Position numbers and translations under genes: made by a program. This document shows positions 3,975-54,140 of a stretch of DNA of 64,000 nt, one piece after another. Position 1 is the first letter of the stretch. Every line of letters begins with the position of its first letter. The stretch is taken from contig CANMOY010000005.1 of NCBI GenBank assembly GCA_947499595.1, forward strand, positions 1-64,000, written 5' to 3'. This stretch comes from an uncultured Mesonia sp. (GTDB lineage Bacteria > Bacteroidota > Bacteroidia > Flavobacteriales > Flavobacteriaceae). The notes below the pieces were generated by a model that saw nothing but the letters and a program-made list of their open reading frames with translations, made no database searches and had not been told where the DNA came from.

Positions 3975-4617
3975 TAGTTTTATTTTTAAAATGATTAGAA
4001 CTTAAATTTCTACTCAAACCTATATCGTCAACTTCATCAACCGTTTGTCCTAAGACAATATCATTTGATTTAAAAAAAATTGTTTTAATTGTCCAAATTA
4101 AAATTTTTAGGTCTAATACAAAAGATAAATTGTTAACATATATTACGTCGTTTTTCAATCGTTCACTAAACTTCAACAAATTTCTACCTTTAACTTGAGC
4201 TAAACCTGTGATTCCTGGCTTAACATCATGCCTTAATTTCTGTTTAGGCGAATAAATTTCTAAATATTCTGGCAACAAAGGTCGCGGTCCTACCAAACTC
4301 ATATCGCCTTTTAAAACATTTAGCAGTTGGGGAATTTCATCTAATGAAGTTTTTCGTACAAATTTCCCAATTCGGGTAAGACGTTCTGCATCGGGTAATA
4401 ACTTACCTCCCGCATCGCGTTTATCGTTCATCGTTTTAAATTTGATAATGCTAAAAATTCGCTCGTTCTTTCCAGGCCGCTTCTGTACGAAAAATGGTTT
4501 TCCATTGTTCGCAAGCGCTAAAGCAAGTGTTACCACGATAAAAATCGGACTCAGAATTAGCAAACCCACTAAGGCGGCGAGGAAGTCAAGAAGGGGTTTG
4601 ATTGCGTTTTTATACAT
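3955..4617 (-). CDS. Initiating sugar-phosphate transferase (PglC/WcaJ-type)
   Basis: 220 residues. This phosphoglycosyl transferase puts the first sugar-1-phosphate on undecaprenyl phosphate at the cytoplasmic membrane. An N-terminal membrane segment (about 10-38) precedes the conserved core: FFVQKRPGKN, FKTM, the catalytic Asp-Glu pair in TSLDEIPQL, then LKGDMSLVGPRPLLPEY. The size equals that of single-domain PglC-like enzymes, without the extra N-terminal helices of WcaJ. It starts the repeat unit that the downstream and upstream glycosyltransferases extend. A disrupted four-helix-bundle gene separates it from the GT4 gene upstream, yet the strand and operon direction continue. Confidence 0.92.
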   Translation of the reverse strand: MYKNAIKPLLDFLAALVGLLILSPIFIVVTLALALANNGKPFFVQKRPGKNERIFSIIKFKTMNDKRDAGGKLLPDAERLTRIGKFVRKTSLDEIPQLLNVLKGDMSLVGPRPLLPEYLEIYSPKQKLRHDVKPGITGLAQVKGRNLLKFSERLKNDVIYVNNLSFVLDLKILIWTIKTIFFKSNDIVLGQTVDEVDDIGLSRNLSSNHFKNKTNEYKRK

Positions 4618-4619
4618 GT

Positions 4620-4638
4620 TTTACTGGTTGACTGGTTT
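4620..4638 (+). repeat. 19-bp direct repeat bounding the four-helix-bundle insertion (left)
   Basis: TTTACTGGTTGACTGGTTT is identical to 5284-5302. The two copies bracket the broken four-helix-bundle gene exactly and lie just outside its coding ends. Confidence 0.75.
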
Positions 4639-4841
4639 TGGTTTTCAAAATATTTAATCAAGTTTACTAACTGCTTTCCTATTTTCTGATTCTCCTTTTT
4701 TAATTCCGTAGCTATTGCTTCAGACAAAAAATTAAGGTTTTCAGCAATAATCAGTTACGTTTCTAATTCCGAATTACTACCTAAAGCTATATATAGAAAA
4801 TGATTTCGTTCTTTAACTCCTTTTCTGGAATAACCCTCTGT

Positions 4842-5105
4842 TTAACCTGTGAAATACGATTTAAGTCTTTTTTTTAGAAACATTTTACCATAATATGCTT
4901 TGAGATATTTCTCTCTTTTTAACGCATCTTTTTGAGATAAACAAGCTTCAAAATAAATTAGCTTTAAAGGTCTGCGATTTTTTGTTGATACTACGGAACC
5001 TTTATTGTGCTCACTTAATCGTAAATTCAAATCTTTCGTATAACCAGTATAGTTTTTACCTTCAAGTTCGCTTTCCAGAATATAAACATAGAAAAAATTT
5101 TCCAT
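4842..5105 (-). CDS. Small GIY-YIG nuclease-domain protein, copy 1
   Basis: 87 residues, a single GIY-YIG domain of the UPF0213-like size. Visible motifs are FYVYIL (GIY strand), YTGYT (YIG strand), LRLSEHN with the catalytic-type Arg, and a Glu in the ALKREKYLKAYYG helix, which would be the metal ligand. No DNA-binding module is fused. The ORF lies inside a four-helix-bundle gene, and perfect 12-bp inverted repeats lie at both ends. The stop codon is at the very edge of the insert. Its residues look intact, so it may still be active. Whether it moves itself, as homing endonucleases do, is inference. Confidence 0.88.
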   Translation of the reverse strand: MENFFYVYILESELEGKNYTGYTKDLNLRLSEHNKGSVVSTKNRRPLKLIYFEACLSQKDALKREKYLKAYYGKMFLKKRLKSYFTG

Positions 5106-5130
5106 AATGATTTGAATTTATTTCACAGGT
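4842..5130 (-). mobile_element. Putative minimal GIY-YIG cassette with terminal inverted repeats
   Basis: ACCTGTGAAATA at 4845-4856 and TATTTCACAGGT at 5119-5130 are perfect 12-bp inverted repeats. They enclose almost nothing but the GIY-YIG ORF (about 290 bp in total). The host gene is cut exactly here. No transposase is present. I see no clear target-site duplication. Confidence 0.55.
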
Positions 5131-5283
5131 GAAGAGTTCGACGGAACAGAAACAGCACTTTTTCTTAATTGAGAAGTTAATCCATAACGTTCAGTAGAAA
5201 AGAAATGTTGAGTCTTTTGATAAAGTCGAGTAACAAAATTAATGCTATTCTTCCAAACATCTAAATCTTTATGTGTCTTCATA

Positions 5284-5302
5284 TTTACTGGTTGACTGGT
5301 TT
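5284..5302 (+). repeat. 19-bp direct repeat bounding the four-helix-bundle insertion (right)
   Basis: Identical to 4620-4638. It contains two tandem ACTGGTT units. With its partner it frames a 664-bp block that looks like an insertion into the polysaccharide operon. Confidence 0.75.
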
Positions 5303-5314
5303 ACTAACTACTCA

Positions 5315-6484
5315 CTACACGTTACTTATCTCCACCAACCCCTCATATTCCTCCAACAGCGCCTCCCAAACCAACTTTTGCTCATACCTTTTACAAATCA
5401 TTGGTCTTGCATTTTTTTGTAGATGGGTATAGAGGGTTCTATCGTTCATTATTTGCAACATGGCGTTTTGCAAAGCTTCTGTATTTTTTGGTGGAATGAT
5501 AAGTCCGTTTTCTTGGTTTTTGATGATTTCGTTGCTCCCGTTTATATCCGTCACTATACTTGGTAAATCCATTGCACCGGCTTGTAAAACTACATTGGGG
5601 AAGCCTTCGCGATAACTGGGAAATGCTAAGGCATCACTAATTGCAAAAAAAGATCGTACATCTTCTTGATAACCTACTGAAATGATAGCCGGGTTTGTTT
5701 CTATTTCGTGAAGTGTTGATTGTTGTAGAGGATCTAATTCTGTTTCGAATGGTCCTACTAATAACAATTTTATCTCTCGACTCCGCTCGAGAGGACATAG
5801 GTTTTTAAATGCATCTACTAATTCGTTAATTCCTTTATCGCCTACTAAGCGCCCAACAAAAACAAAAACAAAATCTTCTTGTGCTATGCCGTATTTCTTC
5901 CGTAAAGCTTGTTTTTTTATGCTGGTGACTTGCTGTGGAGAAAAGTGCTGGGTATTGATGCCACAAACGCTTCCATTAGCCAGTACTTTCAAAGGTTTGG
6001 TTGTAATTTTATAGTCTATTAAATCTTGTTTAACTCCTTCTCCCTCTGGATAAACATGGGTTGCAGCTCTACATAAAAGACGGTCCATTTGTATTAATAA
6101 CTTCTGCATTGCTCCTGCCTGCGTGGGAAAAATTAGACCAGTAAACGTATGCAAACGGAATGGCACGCCCGCAATCCTTGCCGCTAACATAGATAGCAAG
6201 CCTGCTTTAGGAGTAATAGAGTGAACTATTTGTGGCTTTTCTTTACGAAACAGCCTAATCAATTTCCATAAAGCTATTAAATCTTTAAGTGGACTGATAC
6301 CTCGCTGCATGCGAACAGCTTTTACCACAACGCCTTCTCTGCGTTCTATTTTTTGCAATAAATCCAGTGGCGGTGACGAAACACCCACAATCTCAAAGTA
6401 TGAAGACAAAAAATGCAACTGACCCTCAAGTAATTTATCAAGAGATATAGGTACAGTAGCGGTGCGGATGAGTTTAGGTTTCAT
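5315..6484 (-). CDS. GT4-family glycosyltransferase
   Basis: 389 residues with the two-Rossmann GT-B fold. The N-terminal domain has IVHSITPKAGLLSMLAAR, and the C-terminal domain has FVFVGRLVGDKG and a donor-binding region REGFPNVVLQAGAMDLP. In the usual EX7E motif the second Glu is replaced by Gln (EGFPNVVLQ). Residues around AFKNL-CPLERSRE-IKLLLVGPF contain an extra palindrome-encoded stretch (5774-5793) that looks like a small in-frame repeat insertion. The enzyme should add a sugar from a nucleotide donor to the lipid-linked repeat unit in the cytoplasm; donor and acceptor are unknown. It overlaps the upstream pyruvyltransferase-like gene by one base. Confidence 0.88.
   Translation of the reverse strand: MKPKLIRTATVPISLDKLLEGQLHFLSSYFEIVGVSSPPLDLLQKIERREGVVVKAVRMQRGISPLKDLIALWKLIRLFRKEKPQIVHSITPKAGLLSMLAARIAGVPFRLHTFTGLIFPTQAGAMQKLLIQMDRLLCRAATHVYPEGEGVKQDLIDYKITTKPLKVLANGSVCGINTQHFSPQQVTSIKKQALRKKYGIAQEDFVFVFVGRLVGDKGINELVDAFKNLCPLERSREIKLLLVGPFETELDPLQQSTLHEIETNPAIISVGYQEDVRSFFAISDALAFPSYREGFPNVVLQAGAMDLPSIVTDINGSNEIIKNQENGLIIPPKNTEALQNAMLQIMNDRTLYTHLQKNARPMICKRYEQKLVWEALLEEYEGLVEISNV
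5774..5793 (+). repeat. Small palindrome inside the GT4 coding sequence
   Basis: CTCTCGA-ctccgc-TCGAGAG is a perfect 7-bp-arm palindrome of the kind seen in the intergenic repeats (GACTnCnCTCGA). It sits in a surface loop of the glycosyltransferase without breaking the frame and encodes PLERSRE. Confidence 0.55.
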
Positions 6485-53655: not shown

Positions 53656-53729
53656 GGTCTGGTAGTTCAGTTGGTTAGAATACCTGCCTGTCACGCAGGG
53701 GGTCGCGAGTTCGAGTCTCGTCCAGACCG
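53656..53729 (+). tRNA. tRNA-Asp (GTC)
   Basis: 74 bases. Acceptor GGTCTGG/CCAGACC with discriminator G, anticodon stem CCTGC/GCAGG with loop CTGTCAC (anticodon GTC), T arm with GTTCGAGTC. CCA is not encoded. A T-run terminator follows. Confidence 0.97.
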
Positions 53730-53733
53730 CAAT

Positions 53734-53876: not shown

Positions 53877-54140
53877 ATGATCAAATATTTTGTTTATATA
53901 ATCTACTCGAAGTCCTATGATAGCTACTATCGTGGATATTCAACGCAACCAGAAAAACGTCTAAACCAACACAACGAAAACAAAGGCCGATTCACCAAAA
54001 ATAAAGGACCCTGGGTTTTAGTTTTTCTACAATCTTTTTCTACTAAACGAGAAGCTTTGATTCGAGAAAGAAAAATCAAGAAGTACAGTAAATCTCAAAA
54101 CATACAATTAATAGCATCAACAAAAAATGAACTGATATAG
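53877..54140 (+). CDS. Small GIY-YIG nuclease-domain protein, copy 2
   Basis: 87 residues, the same size as the ORF at 4842-5105 but clearly diverged from it. Motifs: YFVYIIYS, YYRGYST, EKRLNQHN with Arg, and REALIRERKIKKYS with the metal-ligand Glu. It starts 7 bp after a terminator-like hairpin. Its TAG stop coincides with the point where similarity to the tRNA-Asp sequence resumes (tAGAATACCTGCC). This suggests the ORF was inserted into or against a second tRNA-Asp copy. Intact and potentially active; mobility is inferred. Confidence 0.85.
   Translation: MIKYFVYIIYSKSYDSYYRGYSTQPEKRLNQHNENKGRFTKNKGPWVLVFLQSFSTKREALIRERKIKKYSKSQNIQLIASTKNELI

Follow-up and report, generated by a model that had tools for sequence, protein, structure and literature searches.

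How does a nuclease gene of 87 codons come to lie inside the reading frame of an unrelated gene, and what becomes of the gene that receives it? This question is raised by a locus within a stretch of 64,000 nucleotides from an uncultured Mesonia sp., referred to in the following as the window, in which the two halves of a four-helix-bundle gene of the IVP type are found on either side of a small GIY-YIG ORF.

The split IVP gene and its empty counterpart

Flanked by two long ORFs (6484-5315 and 4617-3955), which have been judged by eye to encode a glycosyltransferase and a sugar transferase, the split gene is encoded on the minus strand, and its parts are arranged as follows.

4841-5134, (-): inserted element of ~294 bp, with limits inferred against the empty site L177 and good to a few bases
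4842-5105, (-): GIY-YIG nuclease gene P0001, 87 codons plus stop (PF01541, 8.9e-17)
5119-5130: inverted end on the 5' side of the nuclease gene (extended 5119-5133, 14/15 bp)
4845-4856: inverted end on the 3' side, within the final codons of the nuclease gene (extended 4842-4856)
5136-5282, (-): N-terminal half of the IVP gene, 49 codons up to SN (PF05635; 88% identity to L177)
4638-4840, (-): C-terminal half of the IVP gene, starting CA GAG GGT (67 residues; 85% identity to L177)
4755-4757, (-): in-frame TAA of the C-terminal half, where L177 has CAA
4620-4638: 19-bp direct repeat, copy 1, part of the IVP surroundings
5284-5302: 19-bp direct repeat, copy 2, part of the IVP surroundings and not an end of the nuclease element

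The initial annotation had described a single-domain GIY-YIG ORF of 87 codons that splits a four-helix-bundle gene, which has been borne out by the profile matches of the nuclease gene and of ORF 5282-5118(-) (23S_rRNA_IVP four-helix bundle, PF05635, 2.8e-13); the GIY-YIG gene is the only gene of the element. The perfect 12-bp inverted repeats that had been placed at the edges of the cassette are indeed exact (ACCTGTGAAATA at 4845-4856 and TATTTCACAGGT at 5119-5130), with the 3' arm forming part of the nuclease ORF at its 3' end, and in the extended pair (4842-4856 / 5119-5133) 14 of 15 bp match. A predicted RNA fold pairs these ends (z -3.2). The element end supplies the ORF of the IVP N-terminal half with its stop (SN-SSPVK*), and directly past the nuclease TAA the IVP frame restarts, as had been claimed for the host frame, with the qualification that the resumed half soon runs into the TAA at 4755-4757. 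Since the C-terminal half carries this stop as well, the IVP gene of the window is dead as judged from its reading frames, and no other IVP gene of this kind has been found in the window's genome at E up to 1e-8. Both halves directly adjoin the element, and a second 5' end or rescue piece is absent from the window copy.

With the IVP N-terminal half alone as the query, a search of 60 related genomes has yielded an uninterrupted ortholog of 118 residues in a genome of the same genus (L177 in genome G012; PF05635 at 125 bits, TIGR02436 four helix bundle), and the DNA after this gene is similar to the window's downstream ORF. The native junction AAT TTA GCA GAA GGT reads AAC T[element]CA GAG GGT in the window, i.e., ~294 bp have been gained and ~3 bp lost at the conserved SN-x-AEG codons of the IVP gene. 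Short ACCAGTC-type repeats bracket the IVP gene in the window and at the empty locus alike. The outer 19-bp direct repeats have been rejected as element ends, as similar ACCAGT-type repeats flank the empty L177 on both sides, and the IVP genes may themselves be mobile.

Relatives, targets and inverted ends

The GIY-YIG match covers residues 5-74 of the nuclease, and no separate DNA-binding domain has been found within its 87 residues. Its profile matches UPF0213-type structures (1zg2, 2.9e-10; 1ywl, 2.1e-8), and the I-TevI domain 1mk0 only at E 0.18. Among 52 sequences, purifying selection is evident from a median dN/dS of 0.17 (largest 0.40, 178 pairs), and the residues of the GIY, YIG, Arg and Glu positions, which we take to be the catalytic ones of a GIY-YIG nuclease, have been kept almost throughout (Y8 in 49/52, Y19 in 52/52, R29 in 51/52, E65 in 51/52); four of the 52 genes contain stops (L060, L070, L082, L111). 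On a nuclease tree of 52 rows and 87 columns, in which 20 of 49 inner branches are unresolved, the target type is strongly clustered, as five target labels require 10 changes compared to a shuffled mean of 28.4, and none of 200 shufflings has been as low. The window falls into a clade of five IVP elements (support 98/91), and all nine start-codon rows are found in one clade (support 99/99).

The SN/DN-x-AEG motif is occupied at nine distinct loci in IVP genes of two subfamilies (the window, L105, which equals L007 and L037, L036, L106, L008, L038, L051, L076 and L082). Five nucleases that are 74-84% identical to that of the window sit at the same motif in divergent IVP genes, the N-terminal halves of which are 25-64% and the C-terminal halves 25-45% identical to the window's. 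The element of L036 (Psychroflexus halocasei) shares 88% DNA identity over 301 bp with that of the window (nuclease 84%), and is inserted in an IVP gene of another subfamily with halves only 27% and 35% identical. The L105 locus resembles the window locus over 1.25 kb at 80% identity, and from this resemblance the two insertions may be one shared event and not two; the IVP gene of the window is far closer to the empty L177 (88%/85%) than to that of L105 (64%/45%). Two further elements, L040 and L050, are located at a second IVP motif, with their flanks read by eye. The family is patchy, with relatives in 12 of 397 same-family genomes at E<=1e-27 and in 49 of 395 class genomes at E<=1e-20, a threshold that also admits tRNA-side genes. 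Carriage by phages or plasmids has been rejected, as no relative has been found in viral contigs at the sensitivity used, and the database records comprise five from phages, at 42-44% identity, and one from a plasmid. The copies in L053, L078 and L080 interrupt, as seen by eye, RAYT-like, tyrosine-recombinase-like and IS-transposase-like genes of other mobile elements.

The inverted ends have been compared between 59 distinct relatives (at least 50% identity and enough flank) and 41 GIY-YIG genes below 50% identity. A pair scoring at least 9 is present in 41/59 of the former versus 6/41 of the latter; the pairs of the close relatives reach a median score of 11 at a shuffle mean of 6.2, 35 of them beat all 40 of their own shuffles, and the inverted ends are more than chance. 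Ends resembling ACC(C/T)GTGAAATA are common to relatives, and the end sequence varies with the nuclease clade, yet both ends stay matched. Eighteen of the 59 fall below the threshold. In 13 of these, all of the epimerase type, the pair contains a mismatch or additional DNA precedes the right end; a strong pair is lacking in L063, L065, L066, L086 and L087, of which L063 reaches 9 with wider flanks. The mobile element of little besides a nuclease gene that had been suggested from the window alone, together with the proposal to look for empty sites and for common terminal repeats, has thus gained support from the ortholog L177 and from the shared ends, those of other clades being matched pairs of their own.

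Short hairpins that share the ends of the element but lack an ORF have been encountered among the loci examined only in L009 (identical to L116), L043 and L076, the last with a 52-nt hairpin inside the IVP C-terminal half; a 98-nt stretch in L063 comes besides these. A family of ORF-less CCYTGTGAAATAA-ended hairpins has been rejected, given their small number among the loci examined and their occurrence in 0/149 class genomes, a sample that did not include the genome of L076.

Relatives that rebuild their targets

In genes for sugar-nucleotide epimerases/dehydratases, the insertion falls in the NAD-binding Gly-loop, and the element carries with it a substitute 5' end. All 21 loci of an epimerase-type set picked by eye have, behind the nuclease, a start codon and an N-terminus that reaches as far as the Gly-loop and continues into the gene body; a left remnant reaching to the same Gly-loop has been retained in 17, with a stop 9-26 nt before the nuclease. 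Left copies are also present in L009 and L060; L010 and L074 are either degraded or truncated. In 9 of 18 loci checked, the offset of the rebuilt start relative to the nuclease stop is -14 to +5 nt. In L114 (1492-2842, reverse strand) the nuclease and the rebuilt dehydratase gene form a single open frame of 450 codons, and in L039, L044 and L060 two units lie in tandem at one epimerase-type gene.

Galbibacter sp. EGI 63066 has two copies in two different enzyme genes, one of which encodes a dTDP-glucose 4,6-dehydratase (L048; TIGR01181 at 471 bits, above the cut-off) and the other another member of the epimerase family (L045; PF01370). The two copies are 91.7% identical over 408 bp. Since this match extends to the Gly-loop at either end and no further, the rebuilt 5' end belongs to the unit that moves. 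The right 5' end of either gene is more similar to that of the other gene than to its own left end. Across 19 epimerase loci, the right piece is closest to the right piece of another genome in 13, in a comparison of the best of 18 versus one that is biased in favour of this outcome, and closest to its own left remnant in 6.

An N-terminus profile has been derived from 26 natives with leave-one-out scores of 20.6-68.0 (24/26 at 47.8 or above). Five rebuilt N-termini score 31.6-42.9, with their shorter length also lowering the values, and on this measure the profile supports a probable foreign origin of the right end in these five loci. Only L110 has a clearly native left end (64.1 bits, right 32.9); the left N-terminus of L108 has the YH-x-DLS motif, yet scores 41.3, under its right copy (42.9), and those of L107, L109 and L112 (28.2-34.4) are no more native than their rights. 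One may tentatively postulate earlier rounds of insertion for these four left ends. The junction Phe codon is TTC in 14/21 rebuilt genes versus 12/57 natives (p=3e-4, post hoc and uncorrected for relatedness), and in 8/18 left remnants.

Relatives in Patescibacteria sit at start codons and recreate the ATG (topA, dnaG, gmd). For 12 start-codon loci, mostly from Patescibacteria and treated in one script, which did not parse L059, a (T)ATG directly after the right end has been found in 10, with ORFs that range from 111 to at least 659 residues in length; no such ATG is seen for L071 in the script's frame. The nuclease frame opens at an ATG before the left end (M-P-...) in 9/12, including L071, does not do so in L058, and was misread by the script in L069. 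Among the downstream genes, topA, dnaG and gmd exceed the NCBIfam cut-offs, and the Pfam cut-offs are exceeded by MreC-like and RNase H-like proteins. The left flank of L069 ends in an apparent older right end (AACTGGGTATG), as though the start codon into which the element inserted had itself been created by a previous one.

ARAGORN and blastn have also been applied to 42 loci, several of them from one genus, whose GIY-YIG genes are more distant. A tRNA gene is found at 29 of them, and in 19, by a raw hand count, a partial tRNA copy of at least 13 nt lies beyond the nuclease gene, on the side away from the tRNA gene. One such locus is located in the window itself.

53877-54140, (+): second GIY-YIG gene of the window, one of the tRNA-side loci
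53656-53730: intact tRNA-Asp beside the second GIY-YIG gene

Between 53656 and 54300, pieces of the tRNA-Asp lie beyond the second GIY-YIG gene with a hairpin between them, and the sequence that follows the tRNA-Asp occurs again. The distant GIY-YIG genes at tRNA genes appear to follow a similar logic.

A homing-type reading, its rivals and known systems

We propose that the insert is a minimal, splicing-free homing-type element, i.e., a single-domain GIY-YIG gene between short inverted ends, and assign this reading a probability of about two in three. The nuclease would cut its target gene family at a conserved codon motif (SN-x-AEG for the IVP genes here), and the cell would mend the break by copying the element in. 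An occupied site would no longer be a target, and a corresponding immunity of rebuilt sites is suggested by the TTC excess at the junction, itself a post hoc observation. In epimerase/dehydratase targets the moving unit also holds the replacement 5' end up to the Gly-loop, by which the gene is rebuilt, and at start-codon targets in Patescibacteria the start codon is recreated by the element. As far as DNA comparison reaches, insertion, site specificity, the movement of relatives between genes, purifying selection and the rebuilding of targets in relatives have been shown. Several observations have to be counted against homing. Break repair needs no inverted ends, yet these are conserved and vary with the clade; the nuclease is a single domain without a separate one for DNA binding; the insertion cost the IVP site ~3 bp, and a rescue piece is missing from the window copy; 4/52 nucleases have stops and 18/59 relatives lie under the end threshold; the window and L105 are possibly one insertion, and 6/19 rebuilt ends are closest to their own left remnant.

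The chief rival would be an IS-like transposon, in which the inverted ends serve as substrates for the GIY-YIG protein in the role of a transposase, with the motifs reflecting no more than its insertion preference. The matched ends that change with the nuclease clade would fit such a system, as would the ATG or TATG on both sides of the element at Patescibacteria start codons, which is like a short target duplication, and the ORF-less hairpins in L009, L043 and the IVP C-terminal half of L076. However, a target duplication is absent at the window's IVP site, where bases are lost instead, the epimerase-type moving unit extends past the inverted ends to the Gly-loop, and the target type clusters on the nuclease tree. 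Moreover, CCYTGTGAAATAA-ended hairpins are missing from all 149 class genomes sampled (that of L076 lies outside), and no known transposase is present, the only gene being the GIY-YIG gene. Considering both sides, we regard the transposon as unlikely, at perhaps a quarter of the weight.

The remaining rivals are less probable still. The doubled epimerase 5' ends could be plain duplications that arose at insertion and diverged later, with nothing carried in; in this sense, left and right copies are most alike each other in L009 (97% over 78 bp), L043, L044 and L060, and the tandem units of L044, L060 and L039 point in the same direction. The right ends in Galbibacter, which are closer to each other than to their own lefts, the 13/19 right pieces closest to another genome's (biased as stated above) and L110 with its native left and non-native right end speak against this, and we consider it improbable. 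An intron-like element removed from RNA would agree with the paired ends in the predicted fold and with a base loss that preserves the frame at the IVP site. This has been rejected and is hardly credible to us, as no Rfam family has been detected in window 4500-5400 at E up to 1, no match at gathering score in eight relatives, the rebuilt 5' ends would be superfluous if the RNA were spliced, and the IVP C-terminal half of the window carries a stop. Least probable of all is a UPF0213-like gene with a normal housekeeping function, standing alone and found within a decayed IVP gene only by coincidence: the resemblance to structurally characterized UPF0213 proteins (1zg2, 2.9e-10) would favor it, whereas it already fails against the empty ortholog L177, and the same site and ends recur in several genera.

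Whether the homing-type elements amount to a bacterial class of their own, hitherto undescribed, is evenly balanced in our estimate. Such elements of 300-400 bp would have a single-domain GIY-YIG nuclease that homes to conserved codon motifs, start codons or tRNA genes and would persist by rebuilding the target; with the same even weighting, N-termini would have been moved between paralogous enzymes and a recoded target left behind. If true, selfish elements of ~300 bp in bacterial chromosomes would carry a spare part instead of splicing, which would be their answer to the problem that insertion into a needed gene poses. It would also give a role to many small GIY-YIG ORFs near tRNA and sugar-epimerase genes and open a route for N-terminus swaps between paralogous enzymes, and it raises the puzzle of how a codon motif is read by an 87-residue nuclease that lacks a separate DNA-binding domain. 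A literature search, with most subscription papers and preprints outside its reach, has found no such bacterial element.

GIY-YIG homing endonucleases occur both free-standing and intron-borne, as exemplified by I-TevI and the phage Seg proteins. The element described here shares with them the catalytic domain and the site-specific occupation of a conserved sequence, and differs in that it has inverted ends and a single domain of 87 residues and lies inside a coding frame, with no intron or intein. REP/RAYT systems likewise combine palindromic ends with a single nuclease gene; RAYTs, however, are HUH/Y1 enzymes, and ORF-less copies are rare for the elements here. UPF0213-type proteins (1zg2, 1ywl) are similar in size and in their single GIY-YIG domain, but have been annotated as stand-alone, whereas the gene here is the cargo of a mobile element. 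The nearest precedent is formed by the fungal mitochondrial mORFs that carry foreign gene ends. In the sections of PMC3630166 devoted to them, mORFs are inserted in atp6, atp9, cox2 and nad3 with a foreign C-terminus (the Allomyces atp6 case being cited there), so that a nuclease gene plus a replacement gene end yields a hybrid gene and the native end becomes a remnant; the atp9 mORF is a GIY-YIG. A replacement end that moves with the nuclease is likewise true of the epimerase-type relatives, though not of the window copy. According to the same sections, mORFs are mitochondrial, mostly LAGLIDADG, and replace the C-terminus, after which they lie (PMC3630166), in contrast to the elements here, which reside in bacterial chromosomes, measure ~300-400 bp, have inverted ends and replace the N-terminus. 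Engineered home-and-rescue gene drives are man-made, Cas9-based and used in Drosophila, and equally combine a nuclease element, inserted in a needed gene, with a piece by which this gene is kept functional (PMC7968924); for drives of this rescue type, the elements described here would, if the proposed reading holds, be a natural model and counterpart.
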